Source: Aminomonas paucivorans DSM 12260 (lineage in GTDB: Bacteria; Synergistota; Synergistia; Synergistales; Synergistaceae). From it: a stretch of DNA of 64,000 nt. Numbering within the stretch: position 1 is the first letter of the stretch; each line of letters starts with the position of its first letter. The DNA lies in assembly GCF_000165795.1 (NCBI RefSeq), contig NZ_CM001022.1, positions 2,513,812 through 2,577,811 of the forward strand, in the 5' to 3' direction. The position numbers and the translations under genes are program-made. Under the pieces are notes generated by a model that worked only from the letters and a program-made list of their open reading frames with translations, did no database searches and was not told where the DNA came from. Below are positions 1,710 through 62,546 of this stretch, piece by piece.

Positions 1710-2813
1710 TCACGCCGTGTCCCCGCGCAGGCTGCGCCTCGCCCGCTCCCGGTCCTTCTGCCGCCTCCAGGCGTGCAGGGCCAGGGAGATGGCGATGATG
1801 CCGTAGGAGACGAACACCCGGAAGTACTCGCCCAACTGGGCCTGGCCGATGAGTTCCTTGCCCGCCATGGGGGAGACCACGAACATCAGGTGGAAGAGCA
1901 CCACCCCCACGAAGACGTTGGTGATGGTGGCCCGGGCCACCGTGGCACCTCCGATGAGCAGGGCGGCGATGGCGAACATCCCCGCCTGGTCATGGCTGTT
2001 GTAGGTGTTCATGGTACCGATGTTCTGGAGGAAGATGATCTGCCCGTAGCAGGCCAGCACCGTGGAGATGATGATGGCGATGATGCGGGTGCGCTCCACC
2101 GGGATGCCCGCGGAGTCCGCCACCGCCATGTCCTGCCCCAGGGCCCGCATGTCCTGTCCCAGCTTGGTCTTCTGGAACCACAGGATGAACAGGCAGAAGG
2201 CCCCGATGAGGAGGTACGTGGCCACGGGGACGTTCATGGTGCCGAACTTCAGGGGGATCAGGTCGTCCAGGCAGTGCCGGATCCCCTGGAGGTTCACGGC
2301 GTTGCGGATGCCGTACCCCCGGGAGAGCACCAAGGCGGCACTGCGGATGGGGATGAGGTTGCCCATGGTGTAGAGCACCGCCAGCTGGTAGAGGCCATTG
2401 ATGAAGAATCCCAGGATGTAGCTGGTCACCATCTCCCGGCCCTTGGCCCGGTTCAGCACGGAGCCGCAGATCCAGCCCAGGACGATGGCGATGGGGGTGG
2501 CGATGAGGGCCGCCAGGAGCATCCCCGGGATCCCCGAGACAGCCCAGTCCGTCACCAGGATCAGGCCGATCTGCCCCGCCATGGCCCCCAGGACCATCCC
2601 GAAGTTCAGCCCCATCCCCGCCAGGATGGGGATGATGAGGGAGAGCACCAGGAACGAGTTCCGGGCCACCCGGGTCATCATCTCCTGGACCAGGTACGTT
2701 CCCGAGAAGCCCGAGAGGGGGATGGCCACCGCCGAAAGGGCGATGAAGATGATGGGCACGGCGTAGCTGATCAGCAGACGCTGCACGTGGTCCTTCGTGG
2801 TGAGTTCTTTCAT
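1710..2813 (-). CDS. ABC transporter permease, sugar/nucleoside (BPD_transp_2) type
   Basis: A 367-residue polytopic inner-membrane protein with about nine hydrophobic segments and the BPD_transp_2 pattern seen in ribose/BmpA-type permeases. These include the Gly-rich membrane segment around GMGLNFGMVLGAMAGQIGL and the cytoplasmic loop with AVADSAGIPVERTRI that docks onto the ATPase. Its ATG overlaps the stop of the preceding permease gene in an ATGA arrangement, so the two are translationally coupled and probably form a heterodimeric channel. Together with the upstream ATPase and the DUF3798 binding proteins it makes a complete importer. The substrate is unknown. An organic solute such as a nucleoside, sugar or amino-acid derivative is possible, and no residue seen here decides it. 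Confidence 0.88.
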   Translation of the reverse strand: MKELTTKDHVQRLLISYAVPIIFIALSAVAIPLSGFSGTYLVQEMMTRVARNSFLVLSLIIPILAGMGLNFGMVLGAMAGQIGLILVTDWAVSGIPGMLLAALIATPIAIVLGWICGSVLNRAKGREMVTSYILGFFINGLYQLAVLYTMGNLIPIRSAALVLSRGYGIRNAVNLQGIRHCLDDLIPLKFGTMNVPVATYLLIGAFCLFILWFQKTKLGQDMRALGQDMAVADSAGIPVERTRIIAIIISTVLACYGQIIFLQNIGTMNTYNSHDQAGMFAIAALLIGGATVARATITNVFVGVVLFHLMFVVSPMAGKELIGQAQLGEYFRVFVSYGIIAISLALHAWRRQKDRERARRSLRGDTA

Positions 2814-57687: not shown

Positions 57688-60210
57688 ATGAGACAGGGGG
57701 AGGACTTTTCCCCTCCCCGCGGAGGGGCGAAGCAGCTGTACCGCGGCGCGATCCTCCGAAGGCTGGACGCGGCGGTGGAGGAGGGAATCCGGCAGTTCTA
57801 CCTCGTCGCCCCGGGGGGCTTCGGGAAGACCGTGGTCCTGTCCCAGTGGCTTCACCCCCGGCGCAACGGGGTAGCGTGGCTTGCCCTGGACGAGCACGAC
57901 AACAACGAGGAGCGCCTGACCGCCCGGCTCCTGCGGGCCCTGGCCTTCGCCCAGAAGCAGAACCGCCGTCTGGCCGCCCGGCTACGCCGCATCGAGGCCC
58001 CCTCCTTCCAGGACCTTCGGGAGGCCCTGGACCTGCTGGTCCGGGACGGCCCCAGGGACTGGGTGCTGGTGTTGGACGACCTCCACCGCCTCACCGACCA
58101 GGACCGATTGCGGGACCTCGCCCGGACCGTCGCCCTCCTGCCCCCTTCCTTCCTGGTGTGCCTGGCGGGACGCACCGAGCCGGACGGGGCCTTCGGGGAG
58201 GGGATCCTCAAGGGGACGATGCAGGTCCTCCCCGGATCCCTCCTGGCCTTCACCCGGGAGGAGGTGGCGGAACTCCTCCGCCTGCGCAAGGGCGACCCCC
58301 GGGACGGGGACGCCCTCTTCGCCCGGACGGGGGGCTGGCCCATCGCCGTGGGAGCCTTCCTGCTGGGCCCCCGGACGGGGCCGACCGCCGGGGCCCCGGG
58401 GGAAGAGCTGCTCTTTCCCTATCTCCAGGCCCACGTGTGGGATCTCCTGGACGAAGGGACGCGCGCCTTCCTGGTACAGGTCTCCCTGGCCCCCTTCCTC
58501 ACCCCGGAGCTGTGCTCCCGCCTCACCGGCCTCCCCCGATGCGGCGGGATCCTCCAGGACCTCCACCGACGGAACCTGTTCCTCTCCCGCTCCGACGACG
58601 GGACCTACCGCCTCCACGACCTGTTCCGGGAGTTCCTCCTCCGCCGTCTGGAAGAACTCCGGCGCCCCGAGGAGCGGGAGGCGCTCTGCCGGGTCCTGGC
58701 GGAGGCCCTCTTCGAGGGGGGGCACTACTACGCCGCGGCGTCCTTCTACATCCGGTGCTCCGACGGGAAGAGCGTCTCCGCCTGCTGCCGGGCCCTGCGG
58801 CAGTACGCCCCCCAGCACCCCCTGGAGGAGCGCATCGCCTTCACCAAGCGCTACCTCCTGGGCGGCCCCGACCCCCTGGGGAAGCGCCACCCCGACGCGG
58901 CAGCACAGTGCGCCGTGGCCCACTACCTGGACGGGGACGTGGAGGGTTTCTTCTCCTCCCTGGACTTCGTGCTGGAGGCGGCCCGGGAACGGGACGACGA
59001 AGACTTCCGTCGCCTGGCGGGGATCCTGCGGCTTCTGGACTGCCGCCGCCCCCTGGGGGCATACCTGGAGGAGCTGCTGCACCTCCCCGGTTCCGAGGAG
59101 AACCGCCCCGGCCCGGGGACGGAGGCCCTGCCCCCGGGGACCCTCACGGCCTACCTGCCCCTGATGCACCGCTCCTTCACGGATCGGACCGATCGGCTCC
59201 CCGGGCTGGACACCTTTCCCGACACCTTCTGTCGGGCCTGCCGACCCCTCCTGGGGGACGACGTGGACCTCATCGGCCTCTGCGCCCAGGGGGGAGGCCT
59301 CTACGAGCAGAACCGACTGGAGGAGGCCTGCGAGCTGGCGGTGCGGGCAGAGGCTCGGGCGGCGGGGTGCCGGGAGGACCTGCGGTTCTGCGCGGACCTG
59401 CTCTTCCTGACCGTCCTGACGGCCCTGGGGAGGCGGGACGAGGCGCAGCGTCTGGAGGGGGAGATCGCCCGGCGCATGGGTGAGGAGGACCTGCGAGCCC
59501 TGCTGCCCAACTTCCGGGCGTGGCGGTACGGGAGGCGCCTGGCGGAGGGAGACCGGGAGGCCGCGGCGGAATGGCTGGCAAGACACGCCGTCCCCGTCAC
59601 GGAGAAACCGGCCCTCCACCGGATCACCCAGCACTTCGTGACCCTCCGGGCCCTCCTGGCGGAGGGAAGCCCGGACCTGGCCCTCCTCCTGGGGGAAAAG
59701 CTCCGCAAGCTGGCGGAGGACTACCGTCGCCCCCTGGACCGCCTCCAGGCCCTCATCCTCCTGACCCGGGCCCAGTGGCAGCGGGGGGAGAGGGGACGGG
59801 CCCTGGACCGGCTGGAGGAGGCCCTCGCGGCGGCGGCCCCCCAGGGCCTGATCCGGGGGTTCCTGGACGAGGCCCCGGGCCTGCGGCCGATCTTCCCGGC
59901 CTTCCTGAAGAGCCGCCGGGGAGGGGACGAGGCCCTTCGCCGGTTCGCCGTGAACGTGCACCTCCTCGTCCTGGAGGCCTGCGGCCCTTCAGAAAGCGCC
60001 CATGACCTGGAGGAACCCGCAGCCCCGTTACGCCTCTCCCCCCGACAGGAGGCGCTTCTGGGGCTGCTGGAACGAAACGCCACCTACCGGGACGTGGCGG
60101 AGGCCCTGGGGGTCAGCCACTCCACCGCCAAGTACCACGTCCTGAAGCTCTACCGGACTCTGGGGGTCACCTCCGCCGCGGAGGCCCTGAGGAAGGCCCG
60201 GAGACCCTGA
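57688..60210 (+). CDS. LuxR-family LAL (MalT-like) ATP-binding transcription regulator
   Basis: 840 residues. The STAND-type ATPase has Walker A APGGFGKTVV (41-50) and Walker B WVLVLDDLH (125-132), followed by the winged-helix and helical sensor region (about 200-770, with the LHDLFREFLLRRL helix common in MalT proteins). A LuxR-type helix-turn-helix closes the protein (LSPRQEALLGLLERNATYRDVAEALGVSHSTAKYHV in outline, about 780-838). Such proteins are inactive until an inducer and ATP cause them to oligomerise. Divergent orientation to the 1267-residue surface protein makes that gene the likely target. GGGGGTGAGGA precedes the ATG. The inducer is unknown. Confidence 0.9.
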   Translation: MRQGEDFSPPRGGAKQLYRGAILRRLDAAVEEGIRQFYLVAPGGFGKTVVLSQWLHPRRNGVAWLALDEHDNNEERLTARLLRALAFAQKQNRRLAARLRRIEAPSFQDLREALDLLVRDGPRDWVLVLDDLHRLTDQDRLRDLARTVALLPPSFLVCLAGRTEPDGAFGEGILKGTMQVLPGSLLAFTREEVAELLRLRKGDPRDGDALFARTGGWPIAVGAFLLGPRTGPTAGAPGEELLFPYLQAHVWDLLDEGTRAFLVQVSLAPFLTPELCSRLTGLPRCGGILQDLHRRNLFLSRSDDGTYRLHDLFREFLLRRLEELRRPEEREALCRVLAEALFEGGHYYAAASFYIRCSDGKSVSACCRALRQYAPQHPLEERIAFTKRYLLGGPDPLGKRHPDAAAQCAVAHYLDGDVEGFFSSLDFVLEAARERDDEDFRRLAGILRLLDCRRPLGAYLEELLHLPGSEENRPGPGTEALPPGTLTAYLPLMHRSFTDRTDRLPGLDTFPDTFCRACRPLLGDDVDLIGLCAQGGGLYEQNRLEEACELAVRAEARAAGCREDLRFCADLLFLTVLTALGRRDEAQRLEGEIARRMGEEDLRALLPNFRAWRYGRRLAEGDREAAAEWLARHAVPVTEKPALHRITQHFVTLRALLAEGSPDLALLLGEKLRKLAEDYRRPLDRLQALILLTRAQWQRGERGRALDRLEEALAAAAPQGLIRGFLDEAPGLRPIFPAFLKSRRGGDEALRRFAVNVHLLVLEACGPSESAHDLEEPAAPLRLSPRQEALLGLLERNATYRDVAEALGVSHSTAKYHVLKLYRTLGVTSAAEALRKARRP

Positions 60211-60285: not shown

Positions 60286-60714
60286 ATGTTCCGTTCCCTG
60301 GTCCCCGACCTGCCCTGCGCCGACGTGGCCGCCACCCTGGAGTTCTACCGGGAACTCCTGGGCTTTGTCCCCTCCCTGACCCTCCCCGCCGACCCTCCCT
60401 ATCACTGGGCCCTGGCCCGGTGCGGGGAGGTGACCCTCATGTTCCAAACCCTCTCCAGCCTGACCGCGGAATTCCCCTCCCTTCACGCCGGAGCTGCGGG
60501 GGGACCCTTGGCCCTCTACCTGGAGACGGACCGGGCACTGGACCTCTACGAGCACCTCCGGAACCGCCCCGAGCTGACCCAGCCCCTGAAGGAGACGGGG
60601 CAGGGGAAGGTGGAATTCGCCCTGACGGACCCGGACGGGCGGGTGGTGGTGCTGGTGGGAGACCGGAACCCCTCTTGCCAGGGGGCCTGTCCTCCGGTAC
60701 AATCCGCCCCATGA
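60286..60714 (+). CDS. Single-domain VOC (glyoxalase/bleomycin-resistance-like) protein
   Basis: 142 residues. It reads VPDLPCADVAATLEFYRELLGF at the start and has an LALYLETDRALDLYEHL middle and VEFALTDPDGRVVVLVG end, the usual betaalphabetabetabeta repeats of a VOC domain. Metal ligands are not certain: the first position, usually His, is not clearly conserved, so the protein may bind rather than catalyse. AAGGAGGC precedes the ATG. The 3' end carries the promoter of the cysE leader, and its TGA overlaps the leader ATG by three bases, so readthrough from this gene could also enter the cys operon. Confidence 0.82.
   Translation: MFRSLVPDLPCADVAATLEFYRELLGFVPSLTLPADPPYHWALARCGEVTLMFQTLSSLTAEFPSLHAGAAGGPLALYLETDRALDLYEHLRNRPELTQPLKETGQGKVEFALTDPDGRVVVLVGDRNPSCQGACPPVQSAP
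60675..60703 (+). promoter_or_regulatory. Promoter of the cysteine leader / cysE operon
   Basis: TTGCCA, 17-base spacer, TACAAT, lying inside the end of the VOC gene. The expected transcription start is 7-8 bases past the -10, at 60710-60711, which is the A of the leader ATG, so the leader mRNA would begin at its own start codon. Confidence 0.8.
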
Positions 60715-60782
60715 GACAGTCGAAGGTTCTTCGCGGGGTGTTTTTCCTGTGCGCGTGTTGTCCTCGGGGGCGTTCTCGCTGA
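60711..60782 (+). CDS. Cysteine-codon leader peptide, predicted leaderless
   Basis: A 23-codon ORF that begins ATG at the expected transcription start. It begins MRQSKVLRG, and the centre is FFLCACCPRGR, with three Cys codons (TGC at 60750, TGT at 60756 and TGT at 60759) in four positions, then a basic end and TGA. No ribosome site can exist if transcription begins at the ATG, so translation would be leaderless. The next coding genes, cysE and cysK, make cysteine, and the RNA after the stop can fold into alternative hairpins including a terminator. This is the layout of an amino-acid attenuator whose peptide senses Cys-tRNA. The peptide itself probably has no other function. Confidence 0.78.
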   Translation: MRQSKVLRGVFFLCACCPRGRSR

Positions 60783-60898
60783 CCCGACGGACGGCTCGCG
60801 TCCGCTTGGGTCCGACCTAGGCGGACCCGCCATCGGCCCTTCGGGGCTTACCCATCGAATCGATCCGGGGATCCGCCGTCGGCGGGTCCCCCTTTTTT
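60781..60898 (+). promoter_or_regulatory. Attenuator with antiterminator and terminator before cysE
   Basis: Segment 1, GACCC (60781-60785), pairs with GGGTC (60808-60812), with CGGACG/CGTCCG (60788-60793/60799-60804) inside. Segment 2, GGGTCCG (60808-60814), pairs with segment 3, CGGACCC (60822-60828). Segment 3 extended, GGACCCGCC (60823-60831), pairs with segment 4, GGCGGGTCC (60881-60889), followed by CCC and seven T. The pairings exclude one another, and the last is an intrinsic terminator upstream of cysE. Which state is favoured by a ribosome stalled at the Cys codons is not settled by the sequence. Confidence 0.75.
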
Positions 60899-60912
60899 TG
60901 TCCCACAGGGCA

Positions 60913-61635
60913 ATGACCGAGAACGGGAGGGATGGTTTCCATGGGGTGTGGAGGACGATCGTAGAGGACTATCGGGCGGTTCGGAGGAACGACCCGGCGA
61001 TCCCGGGAGGCCTGCGGGGCTCCCTGGAGACGCTGCTGTGCACCCCGGGCTTTCAGGCCCTGCTGGTCCACCGGCTGGTGCATCCGCTGCACGTCTCCCT
61101 GAAGGTGCCCGTGCTGCCCCGGCTGCTGTCCCTGGTGGCCCGGTGGTGGACGGGCATCGAGATCCACCCGGGGGCGCGCATCGCCCCGGGGGTGTTCATC
61201 GACCACGGTTCCGGGGTGGTGGTGGGGGAGTCCGCCGTGGTGGGCCGGGGCTGCGTGCTCTTCCAGGGGGTCACCCTGGGGGCCACGGGAAACGAGCGGA
61301 CCTGGCAGCGCCACCCCATCCTGGAGGAGGGGGTCTTCGTGGGCAGCGGAGCCCGGGTGCTGGGCCCCGTGACCCTGGGGAAGGGGGCCCGCATCGGGGC
61401 CAACGCGGTGGTGCTGGAGGACGTACCTCCGGACACCACCATGGTGGGACCCAAGGCCCGGGCGGTGAAGGTGGGGCGGGCCCGCATCGGGAACCTGCCC
61501 GAAGGGGTCTGCCGCCAGGGGATGGAGGACCTGACCGCCCGGATGGAGTCCCTGGAGCGGGAGGTCCGGTCCCTGCGCCGTCAGCTGGAGGCGGCCCGGG
61601 GTCTGGAGGAGCGGGGAATGGAGGCGACGGGATGA
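60913..61635 (+). CDS. cysE: Serine O-acetyltransferase
   Basis: 240 residues of the short, EpsC-like CysE type. The hexapeptide-repeat left-handed helix carries IEIHPGARIAPGVFIDHGSGVVVGESAVVG with the catalytic His, then LFQGVTLGATG and the late repeats GARIGANAVVLEDVPPDTT. It makes O-acetylserine from serine and acetyl-CoA, the substrate of CysK. The ATG at 60913 has only a weak ribosome site (CAGGGC); a GTG at 60946 is an alternative, 13 bases past GGGAGGG. It follows the attenuator by 15 bases and overlaps cysK by four. Confidence 0.93.
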   Translation: MTENGRDGFHGVWRTIVEDYRAVRRNDPAIPGGLRGSLETLLCTPGFQALLVHRLVHPLHVSLKVPVLPRLLSLVARWWTGIEIHPGARIAPGVFIDHGSGVVVGESAVVGRGCVLFQGVTLGATGNERTWQRHPILEEGVFVGSGARVLGPVTLGKGARIGANAVVLEDVPPDTTMVGPKARAVKVGRARIGNLPEGVCRQGMEDLTARMESLEREVRSLRRQLEAARGLEERGMEATG

Positions 61636-62546
61636 GGCGCGTGGCGGACCTGGAGATCCTGCGGCACGTGGGGAACACTCCCCTGTACCGCCTGGAGGAC
61701 ACCGGGGGGGCTCCGGTGTGGATCAAGCTGGAGGGGAACAACCCCGGGGGTTCCGTGAAGGACCGGGCGGCCTGGGGGATGCTGCTTCGGGCGGAGCGGG
61801 AGGGCCTTCTGGTCCCGGGGGCCGCGGTGGTGGAACCCACCAGCGGCAACACGGGCATCGGCCTGGCCCTGCTGGGGTCCGCCCTGGGACTGCGGGTGGT
61901 GCTGGCCATGCCCGAGTCCATGTCCCTGGAGCGTCGGGGGCTGCTGCGGGCCTACGGGGCGGAGCTGGTGCTGACCCCCGCGGGGGAGGGGATGCAGGGG
62001 GCGGTGGAGGCGGTGGGGGAGCTGCTGGCCCAGATCCCCGGGAGCTTCACGGTGGACCAGTTCTCCAACCCCGGAAACCCCTGGGCCCATCGGGTCACCA
62101 CCGCCCCGGAGATCGCCGCGGGCCTGCGGGGGGCATCCCCGGCGGCCTTCGTGGCGGGGGTGGGCACGGGGGGCACCTTCACGGGGGTGACGGGGGTCCT
62201 CAAGGCCCTCTTCCCGGACCTGCTGGGGGTGGCGGTGGAACCCGCCTCAAGCCCCCTTCTCTCCCAGGGGAGGGCGGGGAGTCACGGGATCCAGGGCATC
62301 GGGGCCAACTTCGTCCCGGCGAACCTGGACCGCTCCCTGGCGGACCGCGTCGTGACCGTGGAGGACGAGGCGGCCCGGGAGGCATCCCGCTGGCTGGCCC
62401 GGACCCACGGCATCTTTTCGGGCCTCTCCACGGGGGCCAACCTCCGGGCGGCCCTGGACCTGGCGGCCACCCTGCCCCCGGACCGGCCGGTGGTGACGAT
62501 CCAGTGCGACCGGGGGGACCGATACTTGAGCGTCCTGGCCTCCTGA
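61632..62546 (+). CDS. cysK: Cysteine synthase (O-acetylserine sulfhydrylase)
   Basis: 304 residues, fold-type II PLP enzyme. The PLP lysine sits in NPGGSVKDRAAWGML, the substrate loop is EPTSGNTGIGLALLG, the phosphate loop is GVGTGGTFTGVTG, and HGIQGIGANFVP precedes the late FSGLSTGAN. It combines O-acetylserine with sulfide to make cysteine. It is coupled to cysE by an ATGA overlap, which fits the shared attenuator. Length and motifs match CysK/CysM; a cystathionine beta-synthase function is less likely because of the cysE partner. Confidence 0.93.
   Translation: MRRVADLEILRHVGNTPLYRLEDTGGAPVWIKLEGNNPGGSVKDRAAWGMLLRAEREGLLVPGAAVVEPTSGNTGIGLALLGSALGLRVVLAMPESMSLERRGLLRAYGAELVLTPAGEGMQGAVEAVGELLAQIPGSFTVDQFSNPGNPWAHRVTTAPEIAAGLRGASPAAFVAGVGTGGTFTGVTGVLKALFPDLLGVAVEPASSPLLSQGRAGSHGIQGIGANFVPANLDRSLADRVVTVEDEAAREASRWLARTHGIFSGLSTGANLRAALDLAATLPPDRPVVTIQCDRGDRYLSVLAS

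Follow-up and report, generated by a model that had tools for sequence, protein, structure and literature searches.

A probable ribosome-mediated cysteine attenuator before cysE-cysK of Aminomonas paucivorans and its conservation in Synergistota

RESULTS

Genes and signals at the cysE-cysK locus

The DNA analyzed here (the window) is a 64,000-nt stretch of the genome of Aminomonas paucivorans DSM 12260, which consists of one 2.63-Mb contig. Positions are counted from the first nucleotide of the window; the promoter, leader, RNA segments, and operon genes described below are on the forward strand. The cysE gene (60913 to 61635; serine O-acetyltransferase of the EpsC/CysE type; NF041874, 5e-55; TIGR01172, 2e-54) is followed by cysK, the second gene of the operon (61632 to 62546; cysteine synthase A; TIGR01139 above cut-off, PF00291). 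Upstream of cysE lies a promoter, TTGCCA-17-TACAAT (60675 to 60703), with a predicted transcription start at ~60710 to 60711. It is the only sigma-70–like site within 800 bases (shuffled sequences: mean 0.0, SD 0.1). The ATG of a 23-codon open reading frame (ORF), MRQSKVLRGVFFLCACCPRGRSR (60711 to 60782), is located 7 nt past the −10 box, and the encoded leader peptide is predicted to be leaderless. The leader contains a Cys-Ala-Cys-Cys cluster, CACC, with Cys codons at 60750 to 60752, 60756 to 60758, and 60759 to 60761, and ends with a TGA at 60780 to 60782. The promoter, the leader ORF with its Cys cluster, and the position of both before cysE-cysK are as described in an earlier note on this DNA. 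The note had also placed the transcription start at the leader ATG, and the location of the promoter agrees with this prediction. With cysE and cysK downstream, the Cys run encodes the amino acid that the operon serves to make, as in attenuators of the trp/his type.

The leader ATG shares bases with the stop codon of a glyoxalase-like gene upstream (ATGA, 60711 to 60714), so leader translation may also be coupled on readthrough transcripts. A gene for a large MalT/LuxR-type regulator (57688 to 60210; TPR_MalT, AAA_16, GerE) is located upstream of the glyoxalase-like gene.

A chain of mutually exclusive pairings ends in an intrinsic terminator

Six RNA segments form a chain of pairings, 1:2, 2:3, 3:4, 4:5, and 5:6, in the leader. 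Segment 1 (TCGGG, 60764 to 60768) begins 3 bases past the last Cys codon, at the same position as the strongly conserved CGGTGGATC strand of relatives. It pairs with CCCGA (60783 to 60787) within segment 2 (GACCCGACGGACG, 60781 to 60793), and the fold extends to 60772/60777. The whole of segment 2 can instead pair with segment 3 (CGTCCGCTTGGGTC, 60799 to 60812) in a 13-pair helix, predicted for the starved state. As 60800 to 60811, segment 3 forms an alternative 12-pair helix with 60815 to 60826 of segment 4 (60815 to 60831). Segment 4 can in turn pair through 60820 to 60828 with segment 5 as an antiterminator, starting with 60820 to 60825/60872 to 60877, and a pairing of its 60823 to 60831 with segment 6 is possible. 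Segments 5 (GGGGATCCGCC, 60867 to 60877) and 6 (60881 to 60899) include the two halves of the intrinsic terminator, a local 11-bp hairpin with a 3-base loop, in which the 3′ half GGCGGGTCCCC (60881 to 60891) is followed by a C and seven Ts (60893 to 60899). The fold of the whole leader has a z score of −3.65, equaled by none of 200 shuffled sequences, and the helix chain was matched or beaten by 2 of 100 shuffles.

The earlier note had listed three complementarities followed by the T-run, and all of these exist in the sequence, with roles that partly change. GGGTCCG/CGGACCC overlaps the 12-pair 3:4 helix. GACCC/GGGTC is present inside the 2:3 helix, so what had been called segment 1 is actually segment 2; the true segment 1 had been overlooked. 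The third pairing, GGACCCGCC/GGCGGGTCC (60823 to 60831/60881 to 60889), can also form, but it is not the terminator: It joins segment 4 to the 3′ half of the real local hairpin and is thus an alternative, 4:6 fold that competes with it.

The Cys leader and the terminator are conserved in Synergistota

When the leader DNA was used as a query against 41 relatives, it matched its own genome alone; relatives were therefore reached via CysE. Among 188 genomes of the phylum Synergistota, 131 had a CysE match, and about 59 loci were close orthologues. Upstream DNA was examined at 58 of the latter, and a Cys-run leader ORF preceded cysE at 55 of them; relatives in the window’s own order include Acetomicrobium and other Synergistota. 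The Cys codons of these leaders, two to five in a cluster that often reads CCC and continues with Arg-Trp, are the most constant leader element. In most sequences, the leader stop codon is located 12 to 18 nt past the last Cys codon. An intrinsic terminator, a hairpin with a U-run, was found 83 to 147 nt past the Cys codons in all 55 leaders. The order of segments is conserved as well: Segment 1 comes right after the Cys codons, segment 2 lies over or just after the leader stop, and segments 3, 4, and the two terminator halves follow.

The three close CysE loci with no recognisable Cys leader are L042, L050, and L052, two of them in a family outside the window’s order. No such leader was found at 12 distant CysE paralogue loci (L060 to L071), and among 75 CysE loci scanned in other phyla, chiefly Firmicutes, a single Cys-rich ORF turned up, which was judged spurious. 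A covariance model, R1, built from leaders with Shine-Dalgarno sites, had matches in 29 of the 188 genomes. It did not recognise the window leader, the divergence of the leaderless group being too great to be covered by one model; a covariance search match elsewhere in the window (1997 to 2052, E = 0.72) was taken as chance. In one genome (G047), a second, partial cysE copy has a Cys leader of its own (MARLSVRENCCCRWIVN and stop) and a terminator (L155, 289 to 365, reverse strand).

Covariation was assessed in an alignment of 22 leaders that had been built without structure; pair-count windows slid by one to three columns and shuffles of the 3′ letters served as controls. Cells were paired in 85 to 91% of cases for helix 1:2, in 86% for 3:4, and in 92% for the competing 2:3. 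Double-sided changes supporting both mutually exclusive helix sets exceeded column shuffles and slid controls (43 versus 21.7, SD 4.2, and 19 versus 7.1, SD 3.3; 0 of 500 shuffles in each case). Compensatory changes are thus present in pairings of the antiterminator and terminator states that exclude each other, and the weakest is 4:5, which shows the lowest conservation of the aligned helices (63% of cells paired). When the best 1:2, 2:3, 3:4, 4:5 chain was sought automatically in 50 sequences, it surpassed at least 95 of 100 dinucleotide shuffles in 37 of them. The comparison of cysE upstream regions across Synergistota that the earlier note had proposed thus reveals both a shared Cys cluster and covarying, mutually exclusive helices, and we conclude from this sequence record that the device is real, conserved, and very probably functional.

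Ribosome position selects between the folds in models

The effect of the ribosome was modeled by blocking the RNA up to 12 bases past the start of the A-site codon; the calculations describe equilibrium thermodynamics with a blocked footprint, not kinetics. In the window, the terminator had a probability of 0.94 to 0.99 with the ribosome before the Cys cluster, and a stall on the first Cys codon alone did not flip the switch (0.94). The probability was 0.14 with the ribosome at the second Cys codon and 0.05 with it at the third, stayed below 0.06 at the three codons after the Cys run, and returned to 0.99 from there to the stop codon. The decrease (to 0.14 to 0.03) occurred solely with the A site at 60756 to 60768, i.e., at the tandem Cys codons and just after. 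The local hairpin had a probability of 0.99 with the stop codon occupied or with no ribosome. Footprints of 10 and 14 gave the same picture with at most one codon’s shift, and equally strong ribosome-dependent switching arose in 6 of 400 shuffled versions of the region.

For most relatives, the favored fold in every state is still the full-length terminator; the test there therefore used transcripts cut before segment 6. In 22 of 25 genera, segment 5 was sequestered more with the block at the last Cys codon than at the stop codon (mean difference 0.20, shuffled 0.01; p = 5e-5; p = 6e-5 against shuffles); the remaining three lacked the expected sign. In these folding models, the position of the ribosome at the regulatory codons thus selects the antiterminator.

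The earlier note had cautioned that a ribosome paused at the Cys codons would stop short of segment 1, that trp-type logic might not apply, and that the direction of the switch was open. Since a ribosome stalled at either of the last two Cys codons covers the overlooked segment 1, this caution disappears and trp-type logic applies. The predicted direction is the ordinary one, with low cysteine leading to readthrough by antitermination.

Parts, conservation, covariation, and position-specific switching in folding models were established by sequence analysis and comparison. They make it highly likely that the cysE-cysK leader works as a ribosome-mediated transcription attenuator responsive to charged tRNA-Cys, in strong support of the core proposal of the earlier note, a cysteine-responsive attenuator with a leaderless Cys leader and an intrinsic terminator before cysE-cysK. 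From these data, we infer ribosome stalling, termination, and the response to cysteine as follows. RNA polymerase would start at the leader AUG, and a ribosome would load directly on this 5′-terminal codon. When cysteine is sufficient, the ribosome would pass the Cys codons and reach the stop codon; segment 1 would pair with segment 2, or the ribosome at the stop codon would cover segment 2, allowing 3:4 and then the 5:6 terminator to form before cysE. When Cys-tRNA is short, the ribosome would stall on the second or third Cys codon and cover segment 1. Helix 2:3 would then form, segment 4 would be available to sequester segment 5 (together with segment 6 in this genome), and transcription would continue into cysE-cysK. 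Compared with a trp-type 1-2-3-4 attenuator, the switch gains two alternating segments and keeps the same parity.

Predicted leaderless leaders in one family

In each of the 26 leaders from the window’s family (f1) and at two loci of another family, the −10 box ends 6 to 9 nt before the ATG. These 28 leaders have −10 boxes of the TANNAT/TANNNT type, usually with a −35 box TTGCCA or TTGCNN 16 to 18 bases upstream, and no Shine-Dalgarno site. Among the remaining 27 leaders, which belong to other families, a GGAG/GAGG-like site is present in most, and some start with GTG. Because the sequence upstream of the promoter differs among genera, the promoter is conserved in its own right. We infer that transcription starts at the leader AUG and that initiation is leaderless; the recurrence of the same promoter-ATG spacing across the family supports the leaderless leader predicted in the earlier note.

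Alternative readings of the leader

The leader could instead control translation of cysE through access to its ribosome site, with the hairpin and U-run being incidental. Leaderless polycysteine ORFs are described as acting at the translational level in Mycobacterium smegmatis in two papers (PMC9031893 and PMC13236596, citing Canestrari et al. 2020), and in some relatives another Cys-rich stretch lies next to the start of cysE. Such control is nevertheless improbable here, given that a hairpin with a U-run follows all 55 leaders and that the terminator strand, rather than the cysE Shine-Dalgarno site, takes part in the alternative pairings that are conserved; in the window, seven Us come directly after the hairpin, and the Shine-Dalgarno site (60925 to 60931) is outside the switch. 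As for the Cys-rich stretches themselves, at L036, L038, L051, and L057, the cysE frame extends upstream, between the terminator and cysE, into a Cys-rich N terminus (MESGCGCC..., MEIDCPCTCKC...) with its own Shine-Dalgarno site and start. At L054, a Cys-rich ORF overlaps cysE out of frame.

The arrangement first suggested for the window, with the long-range 60823 to 60831/60881 to 60889 pairing as the terminator and the direction of the switch left open, is very improbable. The pairing is possible, the seven Ts follow it, and it appears in the model when the ribosome stalls; the local hairpin, however, shares its 3′ strand and T-run, has equivalents in all 55 leaders, and dominates the fold with the stop codon occupied or no ribosome present. 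Least probable, and rejected on the basis of Rfam scans, is control of cysE by a small-molecule riboswitch or a tRNA-binding leader (T-box) with a fortuitous Cys ORF: A T-box precedes cysE at one of the Firmicutes loci checked (L106, RF00230, 104 bits), but in the window region no Rfam family attained its gathering score (best match, 21.9 bits versus a cut-off of 41) and RF00230 had no match up to E = 10. At the leaders of 20 relatives, neither RF00230 nor any other Rfam family passed this threshold (the one hit was a molybdenum riboswitch), and a riboswitch would need neither constant Cys codons nor a leader stop kept, in most sequences, at its distance of 12 to 18 nt.

A possible second cysteine-sensing step at the start of cysE

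Ribosome-mediated attenuation may not be the only point at which the operon senses cysteine. The in-frame candidates for the cysE start are ATG 60913, which has a poor Shine-Dalgarno site, and GTG 60946. The best Shine-Dalgarno site before cysE, GGGAGGG (60925 to 60931), points at ATG 60941, 10 bases away and out of frame. This codon opens a mini-ORF, ATG GGG TGT GGA GGA CGA TCG TAG (60941 to 60964), also out of the cysE frame, with a candidate −1 frameshift site, G_GGG_UGU. The same arrangement, NTG GGG TGT ... TAG, is found in six genomes, those of the window, L004, L006, L007, L021, and L026, which span three CysE lineages with 51 to 64% identity between lineages. At the five loci besides the window, GGAGG is 8 to 10 bases from the NTG and 13 to 15 from the in-frame GTG; spacings at the remaining loci are 3 to 12, mostly 7 to 9. 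L004, L021, and L026 have no other in-frame cysE start nearby.

In all six genomes, the CysE frame is open after a −1 shift at NUG GGG UGU, a sequence of the kind expected of a slippery site with a hungry codon. The product of a −1 slip, M/L-G-V-(W/F), lines up with the N terminus of in-frame orthologues (MGVWRTIVEDY in the window, MGAWRTLVEDF at L003). The glycine tRNA may slip from GGG to the overlapping GGG while the UGU in the A site waits for Cys-tRNA, restoring the CysE frame. On this sequence pattern, we tentatively suggest, as the less likely of the outcomes, that the operon senses cysteine twice, by the attenuator and by a −1 frameshift at cysE promoted by an empty Cys codon. Plain initiation of cysE at the GTG with its long spacing or, in the window, at ATG 60913 is possible. 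According to a 2016 review of recoding, no natural starvation-specific trans-frame expression by hungry-codon frameshifting was known (PMC5009743). If real, the frameshift would be a natural case in which shortage of an amino acid sets the frame read in a gene whose product helps make it.

DISCUSSION

Amino acid leader-peptide attenuators have been described mainly from Proteobacteria, Actinobacteria, and some Firmicutes. The analysis presented here adds a conserved and very probable cysteine attenuator of cysE, absent from Rfam, in most Synergistota families with close CysE, and with it a longer chain of alternating helices that obeys trp logic. Like the trp and his attenuators of Escherichia coli, it has a leader peptide with regulatory codons just before the competing strand, a leader stop codon in the 1:2 loop, mutually exclusive helices, and a terminator before the first biosynthetic gene. 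In contrast to these systems, cysteine is sensed, the target is cysE-cysK, there are five pairings instead of three, and, in the clade of the window, the leader is predicted to have neither a 5′ untranslated region (UTR) nor a ribosome site. Because one family is predicted to be leaderless and others keep a Shine-Dalgarno site, the effect of a 5′ UTR can be studied on one and the same switch.

Each of the closest published elements shares part of this design. The uORFC-8-2 motif, which precedes cysS in Rhodobacterales and is a ribosome-mediated attenuator predicted from comparative evidence only, also has tandem Cys codons in a short leader ORF and a structured RNA with a U-run (PMC8632094). 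It differs in its gene (cysS encodes cysteinyl-tRNA synthetase), in its phylum, and in its two-stem structure with the Cys codons in the first stem, and no leaderless start is mentioned in its description. The Synergistota leaders, which precede cysE and whose stem starts after the Cys codons, do not belong to this motif in a comparison made by description rather than by covariance model. The polycysteine leaders of mycobacteria are likewise leaderless Cys-run ORFs before cysteine genes and respond to cysteine; they have no conserved terminator hairpin (Seliverstov et al. 2005, PMC1262725). Here, in contrast, an intrinsic terminator and a chain of helices are conserved, which sets the Synergistota leaders apart from the mycobacterial type, a Cys-run ORF that acts on translation and has no terminator. 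The transcript of the Sinorhizobium meliloti trpL attenuator starts at the ATG of the leader ORF (PMC7298713) and thus provides a precedent for leaderless attenuators, with tryptophan and Proteobacteria there and cysteine here. None of the open-licence papers found describes a leaderless Cys leader together with an intrinsic terminator before cysE. The main text of a 2019 survey that included Thermovirga lienii (Synergistetes) contains neither cysteine nor cysE; its supplement may hold an unnamed entry (PMC6429828).

Leaders of a related kind occur before another gene. At two loci of genus g32 (L152, 399 to 480, and L153, 379 to 460), a Trp-run leader ORF (MTRSFANNSMLFWWWWT and stop in L152) has a similar hairpin layout and a terminator, and the gene right after it, named from sequence, resembles trpB. 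Synergistota therefore probably use attenuators for tryptophan too.
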